This document shows, piece by piece, positions 23,480 to 60,807 of a DNA stretch of 62,271 nt. The translations under genes and the position numbers were made by a program. Location: IMG/VR virus record IMGVR_UViG_3300050135_000024, positions 1 to 62,271 of that record; one strand, written 5' to 3'. The notes beneath the pieces were generated by a model. The model ran no database searches. It had not been told where the DNA came from and saw only the letters and a program-made list of their open reading frames with translations. Positions within the stretch are counted from its first letter, which is position 1; every line of letters starts with the position of its first letter. Origin of the DNA: a virus.

Positions 23480-24750
23480 TGGCTGGCAACCCCTTTGGCT
23501 ACCTTGCCTATGACCTGCTGACGGGCCGGTTCCTCGACTGGCTCCCGCTCCGCGGCGTGACCTTCGGCCAGCAGTTGAACACGCCCGGCACGCTCTCGGG
23601 CACGCTCGACCTCCGCGACCCGCGAATCCAGGCAGCCGAACCGCTCTCCTCCACAGTCCCGAACCGGACGCTGGTCGTCGTCGACTACCTGGAGTCGGTG
23701 CAGTGGGGCGGCATCGTGCTGCCCCGCAAATGGAAAGTCGAATCGTCGCCTCAGTCCACCAGCGGGCCGCTCGAAGTGTCCTGCTCGGAGGGTTGGGCGT
23801 ACTTCCAGAACCGCGTCCAGGCGACCGACTACTCGAGCCCGCCGTACTCGGGCATCACCGGGGCGAGCCCGATGGCCTACTGGACGCAGACGCCGTGGGA
23901 TGCGTCGTTGATCGCCTGCCAGATCATCGCGGATGCGATCGGCTACTCCGACGGTGCGCTGCAGCCATACGGAGATCTCCTGGGTGGCCTGGAGCTGAAG
24001 CTGAACGGAAAGACGCCGGCCGGCTCCGAACCAGCGGCAGCAGAAGGCGACTACATCGCGGTGAGCTACCCGTTTACGTCGATGCAGACCGTCGACACGA
24101 TCGTCAGCCAGCTCGCGCAACTCGGGCTCGGTGTCGGGTTCGACTTCGGACTGGACATCGCCTACAGCGAAGGACCCGGCTCGCCACCCGTCGGGGCGAT
24201 CAACATCAGCTACCCAAGACGCGGCAGGACATTCGCTGAAAACGGGCTGATGCTCGATGTCACGACCGCGCGCGGCTACGAATTTCCGGAGGACGGCACA
24301 CAGACCGCCAACCAGATCTACGAGCTGGGGGGGTCCGGTGCGATCAACGTGTCAGAGAACGTCGTCCCGCTCGAACAGGGCTACCCACTCTGGGAGCGCG
24401 TGATCTCACGCGCGAACATCCAGTCGCAGAACATCGAGGGGCTGCTCGAACAGATTGGCTTCTCCGACCTCGCGATCTACAGCTACCCGCCCGTCACGGC
24501 CACCGTCACGATCGGCGTGAACGACGCCAACTTGCCCCTAGGGTCCTTCACCGTCGGCGACGACGTAAGGGTCGTGATCCCGGAAACGGCACCGTCCGGC
24601 GAAGTGTTTGACCCGCGTTTCGTTGGGGGACTGGATCGGGAGTTGCGCATCATCGCCTGGAGCTGCGAAGTGGCTGACAGCGGCGACGCGACAGTCAAGT
24701 TGACCCTAGGGCGCCCACCGCTGCTTCAAGCACTGAACCCTGTGATCTGA
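23479..24750 (+). CDS. baseplate protein, Gp37-like minor tail protein
   Basis: 423 residues from ATG 23479. The opening YDLLTGRFLDWLPLRGVTFG and the following GTLSGTLDL are typical of the ReqiPepy6 Gp37-like/Tal-type minor tail proteins that follow Dit in actinophages. A central SEGWAYFQNR motif and a C-terminal GDDVRVVIPE strand also fit. Expected to form the hub through which the tape measure exits. Confidence 0.75.
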   Translation: MAGNPFGYLAYDLLTGRFLDWLPLRGVTFGQQLNTPGTLSGTLDLRDPRIQAAEPLSSTVPNRTLVVVDYLESVQWGGIVLPRKWKVESSPQSTSGPLEVSCSEGWAYFQNRVQATDYSSPPYSGITGASPMAYWTQTPWDASLIACQIIADAIGYSDGALQPYGDLLGGLELKLNGKTPAGSEPAAAEGDYIAVSYPFTSMQTVDTIVSQLAQLGLGVGFDFGLDIAYSEGPGSPPVGAINISYPRRGRTFAENGLMLDVTTARGYEFPEDGTQTANQIYELGGSGAINVSENVVPLEQGYPLWERVISRANIQSQNIEGLLEQIGFSDLAIYSYPPVTATVTIGVNDANLPLGSFTVGDDVRVVIPETAPSGEVFDPRFVGGLDRELRIIAWSCEVADSGDATVKLTLGRPPLLQALNPVI

Positions 24751-25163: not shown

Positions 25164-25170
25164 GGTATCA

Positions 25171-25198
25171 ACGCGCGATAATGCATGTTATTGCTACC
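25171..25198 (+). other. dif-like site 1 (28-bp Xer architecture)
   Basis: Left arm ACGCGCGATAA, 6-bp centre TGCATG, right arm TTATTGCTACC. The ATAA-N6-TTAT core and 11+6+11 layout match XerC/XerD dif sites. The 23 bases 25169-25191 recur exactly at 29401-29423 in the same orientation, while the flanks differ. Confidence 0.6.
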
Positions 25199-25266
25199 AG
25201 ATTCGTGCCCTAATATCACACGGGCGCTAAGCGTGTCGGCTGACGTTGGACGGGGGAGGAGATTCG

Positions 25267-25470
25267 ATGGCCATCGAACGCGTCTTCCACTGCGACGCCG
25301 AGGACTGCACCACCCACGTCGGCTCTCTGCATGCCGAGCCAGAGTGCCCCGGCTGGCTGCTCGTAACCGAAACAGGGCACAAGCCCGTGAAGCACCACTT
25401 CTGCTGCTGGGACTGCGCCATGAAGTACGCAGCGAAGTTCCCGCCGCCTACCGTGATTCCGTGCGAATAG
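25267..25470 (+). CDS. small Cys/His-rich protein
   Basis: 67 residues behind a strong GGGGAGGA. FHCDAEDC at the N-terminus and HHFCCWDCAMKY at the C-terminus give two CxxC-like pairs suggesting one zinc site. Similar small proteins occur in actinophages without known function. First gene after dif-like site 1; its 3' end overlaps a convergent small gene by 23 bases. Confidence 0.65.
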   Translation: MAIERVFHCDAEDCTTHVGSLHAEPECPGWLLVTETGHKPVKHHFCCWDCAMKYAAKFPPPTVIPCE

Positions 25471-25624
25471 GCGTCTCGGGCGTCATGGTCTGCCGGGTCG
25501 TCGCACAGACTGCCACGGCCGCCCGTTCCGACGGATAGTCCTTGCTCCAGAACAGCAGCTTGCTGTTCTCGTCGTAGAGGCGAGCGTGGTAGCCATGCTC
25601 GGTTTTCACGATCAGGAAGTACAT
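25448..25624 (-). CDS. YegP/DUF1508-like small protein
   Basis: 58 residues from ATG 25624. YFLIVKTEHGYHARLYDEN followed by LLFWSKDYPSE matches the single-repeat DUF1508 fold (strand - G-Y-x-A-R-x-Y-D - x-x-L-L-x-x-S-x-x-Y). Family function is unclear, with some members stress-linked. Convergent with and slightly overlapping the preceding gene. Confidence 0.6.
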   Translation of the reverse strand: MYFLIVKTEHGYHARLYDENSKLLFWSKDYPSERAAVAVCATTRQTMTPETPIRTESR

Positions 25625-25695
25625 CGCAGAGCAGTCTCGAACATGGCGCCGCGCCCTGGCTAGCCGCGTCTACGACGGACGGGAGGTGATGACCT

Positions 25696-26796
25696 ATCGC
25701 GGTAGAAGTTTTTGGTTTGCAAGATAACTCTGCCGGCGAAAGCGCGGAGCGAACAAGAAGGGCGATCAACTTCATGCTAAAGCGCGGAGCCACGATCGGC
25801 TCCGTGGCCGGGGGCTTGGTCGCCGCCACCGACTTGCAGACCACGTACCAGGGCGCCGGGCTGAAAGTGGAAATCGCCGCCGGGGAGGCGATCGTCCCTA
25901 ACAATGTCTCGGCTAGCGGCACGGGCTACTACCTCAGACTCTCCGCGACGTCTACGGTCACGCTGCCAGCCGCAAACTCGTCCAATGCCCGTGTGGAAGC
26001 GGTAGCCGCCTACATTAAGGACGAATCGTACTCCGGGTCGGGCAACGAAGGGCTCGTCGAAGTCCTAGCCGGAAACGCCAAAGCCGGCGCGACGCTTGGG
26101 AATCTCGAAGGGGCACCCGGCCAGTCGGGCGGACCAGCGCTCCCCAAAAACGTGCTCGTGCTCGCATACATCCTCGTCCCGGCAGCCGCCACAACCATCA
26201 GCAACGCGGACATCAAGAACGTGGCGGAACGCGCGAACCTCGGCCTGTCGGCGGGGCTGAACATGGTGGACACCTCCTCGGGAAGGGAAATCCTCAACGG
26301 AGAATTCACGGAGGTCTCCGCAGCAGTCACAATGACGGTCACGCCCAGCGTGAACCTCTACTGCGGCGCCATCAACCGATCCGGTGGCACGGTCACGATC
26401 AAAGCCAACTCGGGGAGCATCTACGGCGACTTCCTGAATGGCGTCTCAGAATTCAAGCTCGCGACCAACCAGCATGTGCTGCTGCTCTCCGAAGGCGCCA
26501 ACCTGTACATCATCGCCGGGGAACCCAAGCGCGAATTCAACGAGGTGGCCAGTGGGCGGACGATAGGCGAAGCGCACGAACCGAGCGCGACGCGACCCAC
26601 GTTCGTGACTGGATACGTCACGGTCGCTGCCGGCAAAACCGCCGAAGTGAAAGTGGGCGAAGAACGGCTGTGGGGCAAACTTGCAAACAACAGCGCTATC
26701 GAAGAGACGTTTACGGTGGGCTTCTGGATAGGCGCTGGAGAGACCTACAAGATCACGGAAGCGACGCTTGCGTGGCTCACCTACCAGATTTGGTAG
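25696..26796 (+). CDS. tail fiber/receptor-binding protein; ATC start
   Basis: 366 residues if initiated at ATC 25696. GGAGGT (25682-25687) is eight bases upstream, an in-frame TGA lies at 25690-25692, and the first internal alternative is TTG 25717. The eight residues gained (AVEVFGLQ) complete an N-terminus I recognise from actinophage fibers (A-V-E-x-F-x-x-Q-D). Residues 1-180 are a repeat-containing attachment domain, the remainder a beta-rich tip. Lies inside the block bounded by dif-like sites, a natural spot for host-range exchange. Confidence 0.7.
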   Translation: MAVEVFGLQDNSAGESAERTRRAINFMLKRGATIGSVAGGLVAATDLQTTYQGAGLKVEIAAGEAIVPNNVSASGTGYYLRLSATSTVTLPAANSSNARVEAVAAYIKDESYSGSGNEGLVEVLAGNAKAGATLGNLEGAPGQSGGPALPKNVLVLAYILVPAAATTISNADIKNVAERANLGLSAGLNMVDTSSGREILNGEFTEVSAAVTMTVTPSVNLYCGAINRSGGTVTIKANSGSIYGDFLNGVSEFKLATNQHVLLLSEGANLYIIAGEPKREFNEVASGRTIGEAHEPSATRPTFVTGYVTVAAGKTAEVKVGEERLWGKLANNSAIEETFTVGFWIGAGETYKITEATLAWLTYQIW

Positions 26797-26850
26797 TGGC
26801 CCCGGTAGGCGACCAGCGCGCCCGTCGGCATGCGGCACACGCCGGCCGCT

Positions 26851-27366
26851 TTAGTAGAAGGCTTCGCAGCGCGGCGGATTGATCGCGTTCCATAGGCTCA
26901 TCTCGGATGGTGGACCCGTCTGTGTCTCGGACATGCCAAGGAGGTTGCCGTACTCGCGCACCATGTCGCTACAGAATTCGACAAACCATTGATCCTCGGC
27001 GACTTCCGACGGCCAGCGCTTCGAGTTGAAGGTGATCATGCAGTCGGCGAAGGTGCTGGATGGCGGCGCCTTGCTGTTGGGGCCATCCGGTGACTGCCAG
27101 GAGGACCAGGATTCGGCGTGGATCGGGCGCCCATAGTAGGCCAGGTAGCTCGCTTCCATCGCTGATGTCTCGGGGGCGTAGGTGATCGTGATAGCGCCAC
27201 CGCATGGGGTGGCCTGCCAGTAGCGGGAAGCGATGCGCTGAGCGAGCGCCACCGGGTAGTCCTGCACGACTTGCGTCACCGGGTCTGTGGCCGTGTGTGC
27301 CCCTGCTGTAGCTGGTGAGAGCGCGAGCGAGACGAGAAAAACAACGAGCGAGACCCTATTCCGCAT
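26851..27366 (-). CDS. secreted protein with zincin-like fold but degenerate HExxH
   Basis: 171 residues with a signal peptide (RNRVSLVVFLVSLALSP, cleavage near AGA). The mature part contains SRYWQATPCGGAITITYAP, a Cys pair, and FCSDMVREYGNLLGMSE. In related host proteins I would expect H-E-Y-G-H at the last site; here both His are replaced (R-E-Y-G-N). It may therefore be a catalytically dead metallopeptidase-like protein, for example a binding or inhibitor role outside the membrane. The family link is inference. Confidence 0.55.
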   Translation of the reverse strand: MRNRVSLVVFLVSLALSPATAGAHTATDPVTQVVQDYPVALAQRIASRYWQATPCGGAITITYAPETSAMEASYLAYYGRPIHAESWSSWQSPDGPNSKAPPSSTFADCMITFNSKRWPSEVAEDQWFVEFCSDMVREYGNLLGMSETQTGPPSEMSLWNAINPPRCEAFY

Positions 27367-27574
27367 CGGGGCGCCTCACGATGATCAGAGCCCAGTTGCG
27401 ACGAAACGGCCAGCCGAACTGAAAGTCAACGTTGCTCGTGATGCTGATGATCGCGTCAGCCGGGTATGGGTCGAGTGTCGTGCAAATGCGTATTGCTAGC
27501 GTCTCTTTGGTCCAGGCCTTGAGCACGAAAGCTGCGTATTGACGGCGCGCACGCTTCGGTTTGGCTCGGCTCAT
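27356..27574 (-). CDS. small basic hypothetical protein
   Basis: 72 residues, Arg/Lys-rich at the N-terminus, then ETLAIRICTTLDPYPADAII and a WPFRRNWALIIVRR end. It overlaps the secreted protein gene by 11 bases and the lipophilic protein gene by 4 bases, so all three form one minus-strand unit. No family recognised. Confidence 0.5.
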   Translation of the reverse strand: MSRAKPKRARRQYAAFVLKAWTKETLAIRICTTLDPYPADAIISITSNVDFQFGWPFRRNWALIIVRRPDAE

Positions 27575-27981
27575 TCCGATGCCTCGATCGCGCGTTCGCT
27601 GCTGATCATCGATTCGATCTCGTGTTCGTCCGCGGTGGAGGGGTTTTCACCATTCAGCTTTTCCATCTCGCATCGGCTTTCGCGGATCTCGGCGAGATTT
27701 GTTGATGCACTGGCCGGAAGGTCGTTGCAATCGGTGGACGCGGTGGTGGAGGTTGGTTCCGTTGGCGTTGGCGTTGGGGCAGTTACCGTGTGGGTGTGCA
27801 CGACTACATGGGTAACGGTCCGGGTCGGCGATGATGCGGCGCGGGCGCGTACCGTCGTGACGCCGCCTGCGATAGTGACCGTTGACGCGCGAGACGTCGT
27901 GGAATGGCCGATGGCTACGCCGACGAGAGTCCCCAGCGCGAGAGCGGCAACGGCGACGAGTGCTACTACCAGCTTGTTCAT
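27571..27981 (-). CDS. membrane-anchored Thr/Pro-rich exported protein
   Basis: 136 residues from ATG 27981 with AAAGGA ten bases upstream. N-terminal hydrophobic segment (KLVVALVAVAALALGTLVG) anchors it, followed by a Thr/Pro/Ser spacer and a short helical tail rich in Glu. It resembles small host cell-surface proteins. Possibly a moron affecting the envelope of the lysogen; this is inference. Confidence 0.55.
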   Translation of the reverse strand: MNKLVVALVAVAALALGTLVGVAIGHSTTSRASTVTIAGGVTTVRARAASSPTRTVTHVVVHTHTVTAPTPTPTEPTSTTASTDCNDLPASASTNLAEIRESRCEMEKLNGENPSTADEHEIESMISSERAIEASE

Positions 27982-28022
27982 CTGAGAGTCCTTTCCTTTT
28001 CGATCAACAGGAGGCATCTATG

Positions 28023-28328
28023 TCACTCGGGAACGTCGGCGTGAAAGAAGCGGACGTGCCCGCAGTTGGGGCAGATGGCGGCGTAGAGAGGCATCCCGAC
28101 CGGCTGCTTCTGACCGGGCTTGGTCACGACGGAGAGGAAGTACGTGTCCTCGGCGACCGTCCGTTGAACATCGAGACCGCACGCCTCGCACCGCGCGAGG
28201 AACTCCTTCGCGTCGAGCTTCGCTTTGGTCCCTTCCGGCTGCGTGTCCGCGCCAGGATCCTTGCGGACCCGGTCAGCCGGCATCTCGGCTGGCCGGAGCG
28301 GGGGTTGCTCTGAGTCCTCACCCGACAC
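28023..28328 (-). CDS. zinc-ribbon protein
   Basis: 101 residues from GTG 28328, with AAGG nine bases upstream; the open frame extends to TTG 28358. CEACG and CPNCGHVRFFH give two CxxC pairs of one zinc ribbon, preceded by a charged disordered N-terminus. Typical small phage DNA- or protein-binding ribbon; no specific function. Confidence 0.55.
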   Translation of the reverse strand: MSGEDSEQPPLRPAEMPADRVRKDPGADTQPEGTKAKLDAKEFLARCEACGLDVQRTVAEDTYFLSVVTKPGQKQPVGMPLYAAICPNCGHVRFFHADVPE

Positions 28329-28641
28329 GGCTGAGAGCCTTCGCGGTTGCGCGCACAACTATCGCGCGGGTTGGAACAGGGGCGTAGACTCGTCTGCGCA
28401 TCGGGAGCTCGTATCTCCTGGTGTAAGCCCCCGGTGACGTCTGTGGCGAAGCCGGGGGCGCTGTGTGGGCGCGTAGTTTAGACGAAGGTGTCGAACAATC
28501 GTCTTTACACGAATTGCTGGGCGACGCGAAGTCGTCATAAGGTTTGTTATCGAGCGTCGCCGCCGAGATGTCGAAAACGACGGCTGACGGGCAGCGGCAC
28601 CCGCGTCTAGCGTTGCGAGACAGCAACCAGAAAGAAACGCC
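28329..28641. other. intergenic region with hairpin and divergent starts
   Basis: About 310 bases between the minus-strand zinc-ribbon gene and the plus-strand gene at 28642. It contains the GC hairpin at 28427-28459. No tRNA or further gene is seen. As a divergent gap it should hold promoters in both directions, but no clear -35/-10 pair stands out. Confidence 0.5.
28427..28459. terminator. GC hairpin, 8-bp stem
   Basis: GCCCCCGG (28427-28434) pairs with CCGGGGGC (28452-28459) around a 17-base loop. No T-tract on either side. It may be a bidirectional boundary element or structured leader. Confidence 0.45.
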
Positions 28642-28815
28642 ATGCCTGCAACTGCGCCGTTCCACACCAGCGAGGACGAGGACCATCCGGTCTACCACGA
28701 CAACTCCGCTTGCGCGTTTGGCAAGGAGATCATCGCGAACGATCATCGGGTCGCTGGCGATGACGACCGGGATCGGTGCAAAGAGTGCGCGCGTCTGCAC
28801 CGTCAGGGGCGTTAG
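28642..28815 (+). CDS. small conserved phage protein with Cys motif
   Basis: 57 residues with AGAAAG before ATG. FHTSEDEDHPVYHDNSAC, then a RCKECARLH end, matches a family of 50-60 residue actinophage and proteobacterial-phage proteins (P-V-x-H-x-N-S-A-C...C-x-x-C). Function unknown. Its 3' end overlaps the convergent minus-strand gene by about 86 bases. Confidence 0.65.
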   Translation: MPATAPFHTSEDEDHPVYHDNSACAFGKEIIANDHRVAGDDDRDRCKECARLHRQGR

Positions 28816-29338
28816 CCTCCCGCCAACGCAAGAACTCTTCGCGGTCACGAACCTCCTGGGCATTCCATGCCTCACGTAGCTCGGCGAGCCGGCGAGGATG
28901 GAAGACGATCGACCACGTTGGATGGTCTTCGGGACAGCCGTCCTCGATACGCCAGCTGCGCGTGATCTCCATCACGGGCATTCCGTAGTCGTTCGCTACG
29001 TCCAGAGCCTTCCAAGGCTGGCGGCCGATATCCACCGTGGGGTAGGGATAGGCGTGGCCGTCCCCTCCCTGGCACGACTGGCGCGTTTCGATCCCGTGCT
29101 CCATAAAAAGCCGCACGACATGAGCGATCCCCGGATCGATGCGTTCGCCTCGGAAATGCTCCAGCGCCCAGGCGTAGTCGCTCTGGAGGTCCAGGTTGGG
29201 TCCCTCGCGCCAGCCCGGCTCCCTTGGCGTCTCGGCATCTTCGAGGGCATGCAGCTGCTCGCGCGGCAGACTCATCGCGTCCAGCCACCACTCGGGCACA
29301 TCATCGCGAGTGCGACGATGCTCTCCGTCGCCGCTCAT
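28730..29338 (-). CDS. conserved phage hypothetical protein
   Basis: 202 residues. The core SDYAWALEHF, then IDPGIAHVVRLFMEHGIET, RQSCQGGDGHAYPYPTVD and FHPRRLAELREAW match a protein widespread in phages of many hosts (A-H-V-V...G-I-E-T-x-x-S-C-Q-G-G-x-G-H). Function unknown; the invariant S-C-Q-G-G pattern suggests an enzymatic or binding pocket. The N-terminal 60 residues are variable. Confidence 0.7.
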   Translation of the reverse strand: MSGDGEHRRTRDDVPEWWLDAMSLPREQLHALEDAETPREPGWREGPNLDLQSDYAWALEHFRGERIDPGIAHVVRLFMEHGIETRQSCQGGDGHAYPYPTVDIGRQPWKALDVANDYGMPVMEITRSWRIEDGCPEDHPTWSIVFHPRRLAELREAWNAQEVRDREEFLRWREANAPDGADARTLCTDPGRHRQRPDDRSR

Positions 29339-29402
29339 GCTTCCGCCACTAGGCTTATGTCAACGGGCCACGGAAATAGCCTGCAAATACGCGCTTTCTG
29401 CA

Positions 29403-29430
29403 ACGCGCGATAATGCATGTTATGGCAGCG
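29403..29430 (+). other. dif-like site 2 (28-bp Xer architecture)
   Basis: ACGCGCGATAA - TGCATG - TTATGGCAGCG. Left arm and centre are identical to site 1; the right arm diverges after TTAT. Same orientation as site 1, so recombination would excise about 4.2 kb as a circle. The 23-bp inverted repeat starts within its right arm. Confidence 0.6.
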
Positions 29431-29514
29431 ATGAGCCCCGCGAAGCAGTCCCCGGGCGCCCTTGGACGGGGCCTTGTGCCTAACGCCAGACGACTGCTTC
29501 GCGGGGCTCATCGC
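29428..29514. repeat. perfect 23-bp inverted repeat beside dif-like site 2
   Basis: The arm at 29428-29450 (starting GCGATGAGCCCCGCGAAGCA) is perfectly complementary to 29492-29514, with a 41-base spacer that itself is GC-rich. On the minus strand it follows the last gene of the replication operon, so a strong terminator is the simplest reading, but there is no T-tract and the arm length exceeds usual terminators. Confidence 0.75.
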
Positions 29515-41241: not shown

Positions 41242-42066
41242 TCAGGAGCACGCGGGCGTAAGATCCCGGCTGACCCTCTCCGGTCCCTCATGAGCGCCCC
41301 GCATTGGCCCCCTCGGGGCTGAGGCGGGGCGTTCGGTCGTAGAATCCTTGCTCCGGGTCTCGCTGCCCGAGAAGCAACAGCGAGTGGTGGCCTTGGCTGG
41401 AGCCGCGTCTGACTTCGGTCGGGCGCGGCTCTTTGTCGTTCTGGGGACGGAAGGGGCCGGAGTCGAACCGGCTCGCCCGTGTGGACTCAGCGGCTTAGCA
41501 AGCCGCCCGCTGACCGTTCGCTTCCCTTCCCTATCGTCGGTCCTGCCCCAACCACCGGGCGCGTCTAACCGGGACGCCGGGCTGCTCGCGTTCGGCGATG
41601 CGCTCAGCGCGTGTGAGGAATTCGCTCCGAGGAATGTCTTGGGCTTCGGCGGCTCGTGCTTGGCCCGCACTTTAGATGCGAGCCGGTCGGCATCGATCGT
41701 AATACGGCTGTGAACCCAGATCACCTGCCAGCTCTGGTGAACGCGCAGCCGAGCGCGCATCGAGGCGCGGCACTGGCTCGCGCGGTCCTCCGACGCCGGG
41801 TCCCAATCGCCCTCCCAGAAGCGCGCGACCGCCTGGCAGTCCGTGGCGAACGTCGCCACGTTCATCCCGCGCTCATGGGCCAGCTCCATCGCCCACAGAA
41901 CCGCCTCGAACTCTGCGATCACGTTTGTGGGCGTCTGTGCGTAGCGCCCCTCCGGCCCGATAGCCCCCGTCACCGCGAGCCCCGCGCGACCGGCGCGAAA
42001 GGACGCGTCAGTCACGACGCTCGCAAAGGAGGCCAATGCTGGCTCATCGCGATCGACGGGACGCAA
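41242..42066 (-). CDS. ribonuclease HI-like protein with long C-terminal extension
   Basis: 274 residues from TTG 42066. Residues 15-135 form an RNase HI domain: VVTDASFR (first Asp), NVIAEFEAVLWAMELAHERG (Glu), FATDCQAVARFW (Asp) and TIDADRLASKVRA (last Asp). After residue 140 the frame stays open but becomes low-complexity and runs through a complete tRNA-Ser gene and two GC hairpins, so the extension is probably not functional and the true 3' end may be an evolved read-through. RNase HI would remove primers or R-loops during phage replication. Confidence 0.7.
   Translation of the reverse strand: MRPVDRDEPALASFASVVTDASFRAGRAGLAVTGAIGPEGRYAQTPTNVIAEFEAVLWAMELAHERGMNVATFATDCQAVARFWEGDWDPASEDRASQCRASMRARLRVHQSWQVIWVHSRITIDADRLASKVRAKHEPPKPKTFLGANSSHALSASPNASSPASRLDAPGGWGRTDDREGKRTVSGRLAKPLSPHGRAGSTPAPSVPRTTKSRARPKSDAAPAKATTRCCFSGSETRSKDSTTERPASAPRGPMRGAHEGPERVSRDLTPACS
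41295..41331 (+). terminator. terminator-like hairpin
   Basis: CGCCCCGC (41295-41302) pairs with GCGGGGCG (41324-41331), and the loop can form a smaller inner hairpin. TAAGAT lies about 35 bases upstream as a possible -10 box, suggesting a short independent RNA. Confidence 0.5.
41347..41434 (+). ncRNA. candidate structured small RNA
   Basis: TAGAAT at 41339-41344 could be a -10 box. The RNA would begin with a stem TTGCT/AGCAA enclosing CGGG/CCCG and end with a perfect terminator (AGCCGCG 41401-41407, CGCGGCT 41424-41430, then CTTT). Antisense to the tail of the RNase HI frame. Speculative. Confidence 0.3.
41448..41530 (-). tRNA. tRNA-Ser(GCT)
   Basis: Minus strand: acceptor GGAAGGG/CCCTTCC, discriminator G, anticodon arm GCGGC-TTGCTAA-GCCGC (anticodon GCT), T arm GCCGG-TTCGACT-CCGGC, and a variable arm longer than normal, as in Ser tRNAs. 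The D arm is short and weakly paired. The gene lies within the 3' part of the RNase HI open frame on the same strand. Confidence 0.75.
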
Positions 42067-53097: not shown

Positions 53098-53774
53098 CCG
53101 CGCACACGGCGATGCTGCGGCTCTACGCTGCGGATGAGCTTGGCCCGGACGGCTACCCGCTGGTCTGGCATCGCTGCCCGCGCTGTAAGGGAACGGGCAA
53201 GGTTGGGAACCCCGAGCACCCGGACTGCTGCGGCACGTTCGCTGGCGGCTGCGGGGGCAGCGGGTCCCTGAAGGCCCGCGTCCGCTCCGAAGCTGGCAAC
53301 CGCTGCGTGCGCTGCCAGCATCCCTACCAGCCGGGCGCGGGTGAGTGGTCGCGTTGCGATGAGCGATGTGTCCACGACGGGCCGCTCCGCGTCGGAGGGC
53401 GCCCGGAGGTCAAGGACCCCTTCACTGCGATTACGCCACCGCCTATCGACCCCGGCTTGGCACCACCCCGTGTGTGGGTCGAGCGCGGCTGGGCCTGCTA
53501 CGCGCAGTGGCGCATCCTCACCGTCCACCACCTCGGGGGCCCGACGCGCAAGTTCGACTGCCGCTGGCATCAGCTCGTGGCCCTTTGCCAGCGATGCCAT
53601 CTTGAGATTCAAGGGAAGGTCAACATGGAGCGCGCCTTCATCTTCGAGCACAGCGCTTGGTTCAAGCCTTATGCAGCAGGCTGGTATGCCTGGAAGTATG
53701 AGGGCCGGGAGATCGATCGTGCCGAGGCAGAAGCAGATCAGGACCGGCTACTCGCATTGGAGCGCCTGGTTTGA
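53094..53774 (+). CDS. HNH endonuclease with DnaJ-type zinc motif
   Basis: 226 residues. CPRCKGTGKVGNPEHPDCCG is a DnaJ-like CxxCxGxG zinc knuckle at residues 28-48. Residues 165-195 hold TVHHLGGPTRKFDCRWHQLV, ALCQRCHLEIQGKVN, the HNH fold (HH...C-x-x-C-H). Might be a homing enzyme or DNA-packaging-associated HNH. Confidence 0.7.
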   Translation: MTAHTAMLRLYAADELGPDGYPLVWHRCPRCKGTGKVGNPEHPDCCGTFAGGCGGSGSLKARVRSEAGNRCVRCQHPYQPGAGEWSRCDERCVHDGPLRVGGRPEVKDPFTAITPPPIDPGLAPPRVWVERGWACYAQWRILTVHHLGGPTRKFDCRWHQLVALCQRCHLEIQGKVNMERAFIFEHSAWFKPYAAGWYAWKYEGREIDRAEAEADQDRLLALERLV

Positions 53775-57596: not shown

Positions 57597-58157
57597 GTGA
57601 GACTCGCGTACGCTGATCCGCCCTACCTCGGCTGCTGTGGCCTGTACGGCCACGATCACCGTGAGGATTGGGGATGCTGGGACTTCGCGGTGAGCCACGC
57701 GAAGCTGATTGAGCACCTAACGATCCGCTACCCGGATGGCTGGGCGCTAAGCGCCAGCTCCCCTTCGCTGAGGACGCTTCTGCCGCTTTGCCCCGAGGAT
57801 GTGCGTGTCGCTGCGTGGGTCAAGCCGTTCTGTGCGTTCAAGCGTGGCGTGCGCCCCTGCTATGCATGGGAGCCAGTGAGCTTCCGCGGCGGCCGCAACC
57901 CCCCCGGCACGCCCCACGCGCCCCCAGAGAAGAACGGCGCGCAGACAACGCCCAAGGACTTCATCGCCGAGTCGATCACGCTACAGAAGGGGCTGACGGG
58001 CGCTAAGCCCCTGAAGGTCTGTCGCTGGATTCTCGAACTACTCGGCTACCAAGAGGACGACCAGCTGGTGGACCTATTCCCTGGCACTGGAGCAATGGAC
58101 GATGCGTTGGCTCGGCCTCCCCTGTTCGACACCCTGGAGCCAGTGACGTGGCGCTAA
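57597..58157 (+). CDS. second DNA methyltransferase-like protein
   Basis: 186 residues from GTG 57597. ADPPYLGCCGLYGHDH is motif IV (DPPY, as in N6-adenine enzymes) at the N-terminus; DQLVDLFPGTGAMDDAL at the C-terminus is a motif I-like F-x-G-x-G-A. A shortened beta-class order with no visible specificity domain. Its stop overlaps the TnpB stop, so the TnpB insertion lies right at its 3' end and may have changed its C-terminus. Confidence 0.7.
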   Translation: MRLAYADPPYLGCCGLYGHDHREDWGCWDFAVSHAKLIEHLTIRYPDGWALSASSPSLRTLLPLCPEDVRVAAWVKPFCAFKRGVRPCYAWEPVSFRGGRNPPGTPHAPPEKNGAQTTPKDFIAESITLQKGLTGAKPLKVCRWILELLGYQEDDQLVDLFPGTGAMDDALARPPLFDTLEPVTWR

Positions 58158-59308
58158 GCGGCTTCGCGATCAATGGCACGGGCTTCTTCTCCCCACCGTT
58201 GACGATCGCTGGCCCCGTCCGGGCCGATTGCTCGAGCGAGGACCACGCGGGCAGCGTTTACGTCACGGTCTGCTCGGTAGCCGCATGCGCACTCATGTAC
58301 GCGCTGCTCGAGCGTCTTGGCCGCGATCGTGCCGCACTCCGCGCACGTCCTGCTCGTGTTCCTTGCATCGACCGGGATCACCTGGCGGCCAGCATCTTCC
58401 GCTTTGTCCGCCAGGTACGTGAGGAACTGTCCCCACCCCTGATCGTTCACGTCTCGTGCGAGGGCGCTCCGGGCGAGCCCACGCACATTCAAGTTCTCGA
58501 CCGCGATCACGTCGAAGCGCTCGACCAGCTGCCGGCTCAGCTTGTGCGCGTGGTCGCGACGCACATTGCGCTCGTGTTCACGGTGGCGGCCGAGCAGCGT
58601 CGCCGCCTTGCGCCTGCCGTGAGAGCCGCGCTGACGCCGGGCGACCCTGCGCGCGGCGCGTCTGACCTTCGCGGCTGCGGCGCGCTGCGCCCGCGGCCCG
58701 GCGATCAGCTCGCCAGTCGAGAGGGCCGCGAAGGTGGAGACGCCAAGATCGAGCCCGACGCTCTCGCCCGTCGCCGGCAGCGGCCGGGGTGCCACGCCGT
58801 CGAGCGCGATCGACGCGAACCATCGGCCGTTGCGGCGTGTCACCTGCGCGGTGCAGAGCTTCGCGCCAGCGGGGAGCGCCCGGTGCATCTTGAGCTTGAC
58901 GTGCCCGACGGCCTGCAAGCGCAGCCGGCCCGCGTCCGTGACCGCAGCGCCATTACCGATCGCCCACTCCAGCGTGTCGAACCGCTGACGACTGCGGAAC
59001 CTCGGATAGCCCGGCTTCTCGCCCGCCTTGCATCGACGGTAGAACGCCTGCATCGCTCGATCGAGACGGCGCAGCGTGGCCCGCTGCGAGTTGAAGCTGA
59101 CCTCGGGGTCGAGGATTCCCTCAGCACGGAGCGTCTTGAGCTCGGCATCCTGGTCATAGAGGCTGACCGACCGGCCCTGCTCGTGCCACGCGTCGCGGCG
59201 ATGCTGGAGCGCCGCGTTGTACAGGTCGCACGCTTCGCCGAGCTGCTGCTCGAGCGCCTGTGCCTGCCTGCGCGTCGGATACAGGCGATATCGGTAGGTG
59301 CGGCGCAC
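58154..59308 (-). CDS. tnpB: TnpB (IS200/IS605-type RNA-guided nuclease)
   Basis: 384 residues. N-terminal RRTYRYRLYPTRRQAQALEQ, RuvC motif I SVGLDLGVSTFAAL, motif II DVIAVENLNVRGLARS, zinc ribbon CAECGT...ECACGYRADRDVNAA containing the last catalytic Asp. All three RuvC acids are present. No TnpA is adjacent. TnpB normally works with an omega-RNA transcribed from its own 3' end and the element's right end; here the stop abuts the converging methyltransferase gene, leaving no room for a separate right end. It may be active, guided by the following sequence, or a trapped copy. Confidence 0.9.
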   Translation of the reverse strand: MRRTYRYRLYPTRRQAQALEQQLGEACDLYNAALQHRRDAWHEQGRSVSLYDQDAELKTLRAEGILDPEVSFNSQRATLRRLDRAMQAFYRRCKAGEKPGYPRFRSRQRFDTLEWAIGNGAAVTDAGRLRLQAVGHVKLKMHRALPAGAKLCTAQVTRRNGRWFASIALDGVAPRPLPATGESVGLDLGVSTFAALSTGELIAGPRAQRAAAAKVRRAARRVARRQRGSHGRRKAATLLGRHREHERNVRRDHAHKLSRQLVERFDVIAVENLNVRGLARSALARDVNDQGWGQFLTYLADKAEDAGRQVIPVDARNTSRTCAECGTIAAKTLEQRVHECACGYRADRDVNAARVVLARAIGPDGASDRQRWGEEARAIDREAA

Positions 59309-60102: not shown

Positions 60103-60807
60103 CTAATCGCCCCAGTCGATCGCCCTCATCTCGGCGGCGAGTTCGGGGTCGTTGACGTGAAGGTAGATGCTGGTGGTCTCGATCGAGGCGTGTCCCATGA
60201 GCTGCTGGAGCTTGAGGATCGAGACGCCGTGGCCCAGGCAGTCGGTCGCAAAAGTGTGGCGCAGCGTGTGCGGGTGCGCCTTCTTTGTGTCGATGCCGGC
60301 CTTGAGCATCCGCCGTCGAATGCTCTTATAGGTCGAGTCGGTGGTGACGCCGAGGTTCGGCAGCTCGCCGTGGCGGCTACATGCGCCACGACGGATTGAG
60401 ATGAACAGCGGCGCGTCGTCCTTGCGGGTGCGCGAGTAGCGCCCGCGCATCTGAAGCCAGCGGGTCAGCAGATCGAGCGTCGCAGCGTCGGCGTAGACGG
60501 TGCGCTCCTTCTTGCCCTTCCCGGTCACGCGAATATTGCCCGTCTCCCAATCGACGTCGCCGAGCCGGACACCGCACGCCTCGTGGATACGCAACCCACA
60601 GCGATACATCAGCTGCATGATGCAGCGGTCGCGGAAGCCTGTCGGCACTCGCATGTTGGGCGTGCTCATCAGCTTCTTGACCTCTGCGGCGGTGAGCACG
60701 CCCGGCAGCCGCCGCCCCTTGCGCGGGCCTCGGTGCGCGGTGCGACTGAGTGCGGTTTTGCTCGCAGGCACGGGCGCCTCTTTCCGGGCTGGCAGGGAGT
60801 GCGACAA
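60103..60807 (-). CDS. tyrosine recombinase, Xer-like, short N-terminus
   Basis: 234 residues from TTG 60807. Catalytic set: Arg in [16 protein letters not shown], Lys in [11 protein letters not shown]-x-x-R in [13 protein letters not shown], His in [12 protein letters not shown], Tyr in SIYLHV. The usual N-terminal SAM-like core-binding domain is almost absent (about 45 residues before the catalytic fold), resembling Xer-like mobile-element enzymes. Candidate for phage integration and for recombination at the dif-like sites at 25171 and 29403. Confidence 0.85.

Follow-up and report, generated by a model that had tools for sequence, protein, structure and literature searches.

What are sequences resembling dif, the host chromosomal XerC/XerD site, doing at both ends of a block of fibre-like and accessory genes in a tailed phage? 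The question is raised by virus record IMGVR_UViG_3300050135_000024, whose entire 62,271 bp (65% G+C) we analysed and call the window (W). W comes from a tailed virus of Solirubrobacterales, an order of soil bacteria. Its accessory block (25164-29430, no strand assigned) separates the tail-gene operon from the early region and is bracketed by two dif-type sites, sites 1 and 2, with a third, inverted site inside. We consider Xer-mediated recombination of a movable block to be the best single explanation of this arrangement, at about even odds (probability roughly 0.5).

Dif-type sites in the phage and its host order

The bracketing sites contain an exact 23-bp direct repeat, CAACGCGCGATAATGCATGTTAT, at 25169-25191 and 29401-29423, both on the plus strand and 4232 bp apart from start to start, just as a preliminary description of this DNA had reported. 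A search for a 19-bp core pattern with up to three mismatches found it nowhere else in W and gave 0 matches in shuffles of W. The repeat pair is not a product of chance. Site 1 (25169-25198, plus strand, orientation C|D), called from the repeat, the match to host dif and a weight matrix, comprises an XerC arm region, CAACGCGCGATAA (25169-25181), the core TGCATG (25182-25187) and a degenerate XerD arm, TTATTGCTACC (25188-25198). Site 2 (29401-29430, plus strand, C|D) has the same arm region, CAACGCGCGATAA, and the same core, followed by the degenerate XerD arm TTATGGCAGCG.

The weight matrix, derived from 44 dif sites of Solirubrobacterales, recovered both sites in W and added one that the preliminary description, correct about the first two, had overlooked. 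Site 3 occupies 28559-28530 on the minus strand (28530-28559, D|C on the plus strand) and consists of XerC arm region CGACGCTCGATAA, core CAAACC and XerD arm TTATGACGACT. It has the top matrix score in W (28.0). The scan returned nothing more in W, and no site at that matrix level arose in 300 genomes simulated with matching dinucleotide composition. All three sites are intergenic, and on the plus strand they read C|D (25169), D|C (28559) and C|D (29401), an alternating orientation.

The left part of these sites is found in host chromosomes. We scanned about 85,000 genomes, one per species, for the pattern CAACGCNCGATAATGCATGTT, which covers the XerC arm and core (21 bp, one N). Only 2 matches emerged, both in Solirubrobacterales metagenome-assembled genomes (L033, CAACGCTCGATAATGCATGTTATGTAAACA; L034, CAACGCTCGATAATGCATGTTATGTCAACA). 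In both, the match is followed by a canonical dif XerD arm, TTATGTCAACA, of the actinobacterial type TTATGTCAA, and the two loci have similar gene neighbourhoods and occur once per genome. Their XerC arm is identical to the 11-bp arm of site 3, ACGCTCGATAA. Across 232 Solirubrobacterales genomes, 89 have a dif match with at most three mismatches, in one copy in all but one of them; a reversed control pattern gave 0 matches in this order-wide scan. The consensus from 34 loci of the order is YAAYGCNCGATAA-N6-TTATGTNAAC, with cores that differ by clade. TGCATG, the core of sites 1 and 2, is that of host genomes G005, G006, G135 and G163-G166.

Because an order-wide, mostly single-copy dif carries both elements, we identify the repeat as the XerC arm and core of host-order dif. 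The XerC arm in W, ACGCGCGATAA, compares with ACGC[TAG]CGATAA in the hosts and reaches a matrix left score of 20.7 out of 24.5. The XerD arms TTATTGCTACC and TTATGGCAGCG fail the canonical TTATGTNAAC, with right-arm scores of 4.8 and 1.5 out of 22. We regard it as close to certain that the sites are real and derived from dif. The dif identity proposed earlier is thus borne out, and a host dif that differs from the repeat in core and arms, which would have spoken against it, is not what the genomes contain: the XerC arm and the 6-bp core are the same. The dif layout described earlier holds for the XerC arm, the 6-bp TGCATG and the TTAT that follows, and the right arm is just partly dif-like when TTATTGCTACC and TTATGGCAGCG are set against the host TTATGTCAACY. 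Low-GC matches in L003, L005, L006 and L008 were discarded as coding or chance matches in unrelated phages.

Host assignment does not rest on dif alone. A prophage in the Solirubrobacterales genome G129 has a tail protein 54% identical to that of W, which independently supports this order as the host. Among the cultured phages searched, the major capsid protein and the secreted protein encoded at 26851 had no match, and matches to the tail and fibre proteins were distant and confined to Arthrobacter and Streptomyces phages.

Related phages and the contents of the block

Sites 1 and 2 recur in relatives of W. The matrix counts three sites in W, two in G1 (3300027648_000002), two in G2 (3300044797_000084) and none in the more distant G4 (3300036790_000795). 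Counterparts of site 1 lie at 53230 in G1 (G1 locus numbering, L007 or G1r; identical through the XerD arm) and at 24453 in G2 (G2 locus numbering, L011 or G2r), and those of site 2 at G1r 56215 and G2r 28184. Over the left 21 bp, which take in the left half and the core, all six direct sites of W, G1 and G2 agree at 20-21/21 positions. The XerD arms diverge between relatives, starting TTAT, TTCT or TTTC (TTATTGCTACC and TTTCGTACACC in G1; TTCTGGAGACC and TTATGGCGCCG in G2).

In W, G1 and G2, site 1 starts 4-24 bp past the last tail-gene stop. W and G2 have most structural genes in common; the structural genes of G1 are unrelated and include one for a P2-like gpI tail protein, but G1 shares early genes and the neighbourhood of the block. 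Compared between W and G1, the DNA to the right of site 1 is 85% identical and that to its left 63%, no better than the limit set by shuffles. At site 1, therefore, the same downstream DNA is joined to different tail modules.

Between the sites, the block has a mixed content: fibre-like genes, a protein of the 26851 type in W and G1, and one gene present in G1 and G2 and not in W. Within it, W and G2 are 96% identical at 27346-27566 and 27968-28025 and about 80% elsewhere; by sequence these two segments are recent exchange inside the block, with ends that do not lie at dif sites. Nearest site 1 is a gene for a small cysteine-rich protein (25246-25470, plus strand), with a homologue after site 1 in G2. 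The fibre-like gene (25696-26796, plus strand) matches the virion structural protein family PHROG 3398 at 3e-10 and has homologues in G2, G4 and the G129 prophage. Its frame would open at 25696 with ATC, the first standard start being a TTG at 25717; the G2 equivalent begins with ATG, and the ATC may be a rare start or a lost one.

The gene at 26851-27366 (minus strand) encodes a secreted-type protein with a degenerate zincin-like motif. This protein, a secreted pseudo-zincin in the earlier description, has a signal-like N-terminus, and the 62% identical homologue that G1 carries within the same bracket has an HEYGN motif; there was no Pfam, PHROG or NCBIfam match. As a probe of viral contigs the protein matched a near-identical record only. 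Its predicted structure, a low-confidence fold with a predicted local distance difference test (pLDDT) score of 46, was not used. Two further minus-strand genes encode a small protein with one N-terminal hydrophobic segment (27571-28017) and a zinc-ribbon protein (28023-28358; a weak, sub-threshold match).

The stretch from site 3 to site 2 is largely peculiar to W. Approximately 28510-29355 (about 0.8 kb, no strand assigned) is W-specific DNA where G1 and G2 have just 50-100 bp or so, and it includes a 202-aa gene (28730-29338, minus strand) absent from G1, G2 and G4. The left edge of this insert falls within about 20 bp of site 3. At its right edge is a lone XerD-arm-like sequence, TTATGTCAACG (29356-29366, plus strand), which is kept in G1 and, as CTATGTAAACC, in G2. 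Adjoining site 2 on the other side is a long imperfect hairpin with 31-nt arms (29428-29514, no strand assigned; fold z-score -5), also kept in G1 and G2 and probably a terminator or structured element. Its resemblance to the Rfam F6 small RNA stayed below the gathering score, occurred on both strands and was accompanied by matches to microRNA hairpin models, and was rejected as a generic hairpin match.

A second phage lineage has a comparable arrangement. G241 (3300044652_000026) is a complete phage of 49.7 kb with an end overlap, and its proteins do not resemble those of W save for a methyltransferase and one small protein. Two opposed sites, at 459 on the plus strand (CAACGCACGATAA GCGTCC TTATGTCTACC) and at 2202 on the minus strand (CAACGCACGATAA TGGTGG CTATGACCACC), enclose a fibre-like gene with no family match and a secreted-type gene, between terminase and portal. 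Another Solirubrobacterales clade has TGGTGG as its dif core. As in W, the site with the host core is the one with the weak XerD arm.

Dif-like sequences of other kinds turned up elsewhere. Triple "sites" in G242 and L154 were not counted as dif, being gene starts that code a repeated (H)DN..YVK motif. In L110 (140, 1403, 1875) and L154 (6573, 5957, 5773), small genes with this common start sequence, whose DNA imitates dif, come as the same three variants in the same order with spacings of different length. L094 (753) and L114 (3159) (IMGVR 3300024283_000005 and 3300046719_000014), related phages without a PF00589 integrase, have an orthologous intergenic dif-like site with identical arms and different cores, CGGTGT and GGATGT. 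L156, a phage contig of 42% G+C, has dif-like sites at 2334 and 3815, in direct orientation, 1.5 kb apart and both with the core AACATG.

Other features of the window include a tRNA-Ser(GCT) gene (41448-41531, minus strand). Scanning part of the W genes revealed neither a terminase nor a portal, and the record probably lacks part of the phage genome.

Candidate recombinases and rival explanations

Which enzyme would act on these sites? W encodes a 234-aa Xer-like tyrosine recombinase (60103-60807, minus strand) with its catalytic residues present and its N-terminal core-binding domain missing; G1, G2 and G4 have no counterpart. The gene adjoins one for a stand-alone RNA-guided nuclease, TnpB (58154-59308, minus strand; NF040570, 1e-76). 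The preliminary description had offered the Xer-like protein as a possible actor, which is unlikely given that G1 and G2 keep the sites with no tyrosine recombinase detected and that the W protein has no core-binding domain. No PF00589 recombinase was found in G1, G2, G3 (a near-identical record of W), G4 or G241, and no large serine integrase in the site-bearing G1, G2 and G241; G1 has a small serine recombinase only, G4 a serine integrase and the G129 prophage a tyrosine integrase. Since site-bearing relatives have no detected tyrosine integrase, host XerC/XerD are the likely enzymes. Host genome G006, whose dif has the TGCATG core, encodes two tyrosine recombinases, an XerD above cut-off and an XerC-like protein.

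From these sequence features we infer XerC/XerD action on the sites, movement of the block and the possibility of integration at dif. Sites 1 and 2 are phage-borne dif of the type known from TLCphi and the gonococcal island (GGI), with a host-identical XerC arm and core and a weakened XerD arm, and they mark the junctions where an accessory block is set between the structural and early regions. Host XerC and XerD would pair sites with a common core and recombine them at low frequency, and the weak XerD arm could render this recombination independent of FtsK or refractory to it. The block or parts of it might then be excised, gained or swapped with another phage or prophage, as dif modules are among Acinetobacter plasmids. 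Recombination with host dif through the same sites would be possible in principle.

Several observations weigh against a movable block. Site 3 is missing from G1 and G2, which have two direct sites only. The block genes of W, G1 and G2 are largely homologous, a sign of retention alongside reshuffling. The right edge of the W-specific insert is 45 bp left of site 2, outside its core, and the insert fits the gain of a module well on the left and imperfectly on the right. With their altered XerD arms, sites 1 and 2 may no longer support canonical FtsK-activated recombination. Fibre homologues follow the tail gene with no dif site in G4 and the G129 prophage; these relatives answer only in part to the case of the same block without repeats, since the rest of the block was not so found. 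The block is intact in G3 too, and the public viral contigs scanned held no excised, inverted or exchanged form and no deletion junction. Modular exchange or excision by host XerC/XerD, as first suggested, is compatible with the conserved sites, inverted site 3, the W insert and the G241 block, and no junction, circle or swap has been seen.

Alternatively, the sites may serve lysogeny. Actinophage attachment sites (attP) and integrase genes are often located between structural and early regions, which is where the sites of W lie. An integrative mobile element exploiting Xer (IMEX) would recombine a TLCphi-type site with host dif by XerC/XerD; the second copy would be an older insertion or duplication and any mobility of the block secondary. 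The anatomy of the sites equals that of TLCphi attP and difGGI (PMC5357621), phage and host cores are identical, the site-less relatives use other integrases (serine in G4, tyrosine in the G129 prophage), and the site-bearing G1, G2 and G241 yielded neither a PF00589 match nor a large serine integrase. Against this, no prophage was found at dif, although sampling is thin: in the 232 Solirubrobacterales genomes the sole prophage relative lies on a contig that contains no dif site. One site suffices for integration, yet two are conserved; moreover, the W and G2 contigs may be incomplete and G1 carries its small serine recombinase. We regard this explanation as the main rival, though a doubtful one. 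It is unlikely that the sites bind XerC/XerD for some other purpose, such as titrating host XerC or, in a plasmid-like state, resolving phage dimers or concatemers. The XerC arm and core being the conserved part, and near-complete phages without integrases, would suit such a role, but two direct sites would delete the block and not merely resolve dimers.

The same conservation bears on whether the sites are relics of past Xer-mediated acquisition with no present use. Degenerate XerD arms and imperfect insert boundaries would agree with that, yet XerC arm and core remain 20-21/21 identical while nearby proteins are 27-86% identical and one tail differs. Since exactly the XerC side and core are conserved, mere relics seem unlikely. 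Least probable, and very much so, is a promoter or operator repeat, in which GATAAT would be a -10 box, transcription from site 2 running into the hairpin and that from site 1 into the fibre operon. Conservation does end just right of the repeat and the conserved hairpin does adjoin site 2. We considered a -10 box on the ground that the right half varies in relatives and dropped it once the host chromosomes turned out to have an identical dif: this arm and core form the mostly single-copy dif of the host order, complete with a full XerD arm, and site 1 has no conserved -35.

If a block moved by Xer recombination is the right explanation, its consequences extend beyond W. Phage mosaicism is usually ascribed to homologous or illegitimate recombination; a fibre block edged by Xer sites that match the host would allow tail and accessory genes to be changed by a site-specific route. 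We tentatively suggest, without counting it as probable, that tailed phages of Solirubrobacterales carry Xer-bracketed receptor-binding and accessory modules that the chromosome-resolution enzymes of the host shuffle from phage to phage, with spacer identity to host dif deciding which modules come together. The XerC arm and core also provide a sequence handle by which uncultivated phages can be assigned to hosts within a single clade, as was done here.

Comparison with known Xer sites and modules

Phenomena of this kind are known as dif modules and IMEX sites; the setting, a fibre block of a tailed phage, is new in the literature searched. That literature, which was open-access and leaves out most subscription journals, contained no description of dif modules in tailed phages. 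The dif-module arrangement is known chiefly from Acinetobacter plasmids; were our preferred reading true, its anatomy in tailed phages from a distant phylum would point to a more general strategy.

In terms of sequence, one close counterpart is chromosomal dif itself. Solirubrobacterales dif and that of Frankia alni, CACGCCGATAATGCACATTATGTCAAGT (PMC3025954), share with the phage copies the XerC arm, the 6-bp spacing and the TTAT start of the XerD arm, and the dif of L033 and L034 has a core identical to that of sites 1 and 2. Unlike chromosomal dif, the phage copies lose the outer XerD arm and occur two or three times. This divergence has a parallel in TLCphi attP and difGGI, which resemble host dif on the XerC side and in the centre and diverge on the XerD side (PMC5357621). 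W sites share that pattern, and likewise point to host recombinases and not a phage integrase. They differ in belonging to a tailed double-stranded DNA phage, in flanking a block as two conserved direct copies, and in that no integrated form was found.

The arrangement as a whole recalls the plasmid dif (pdif) modules of Acinetobacter, in which genes sit between short XerC/XerD sites and adjacent sites are opposed (PMC13141974, PMC6449649). There, loss of module pairs has been observed where the outer sites are direct and have identical spacers (PMC13141974). W likewise has a D-type module (sites 1 to 3) and a C-type module (sites 3 to 2) between direct outer sites with a common core, and G241 has two opposed sites, with 6-bp spacers and variable cores, around a fibre-like and a secreted-type gene. 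In contrast to the Acinetobacter modules, G1 and G2 have no inverted middle site, the phage sites with a host core have degenerate XerD arms, and no rearrangement was observed. The carriers here are tailed phages of an actinobacterial order in place of plasmids, and the cargo consists of virion and secreted proteins where the Acinetobacter modules carry resistance or toxin-antitoxin genes.

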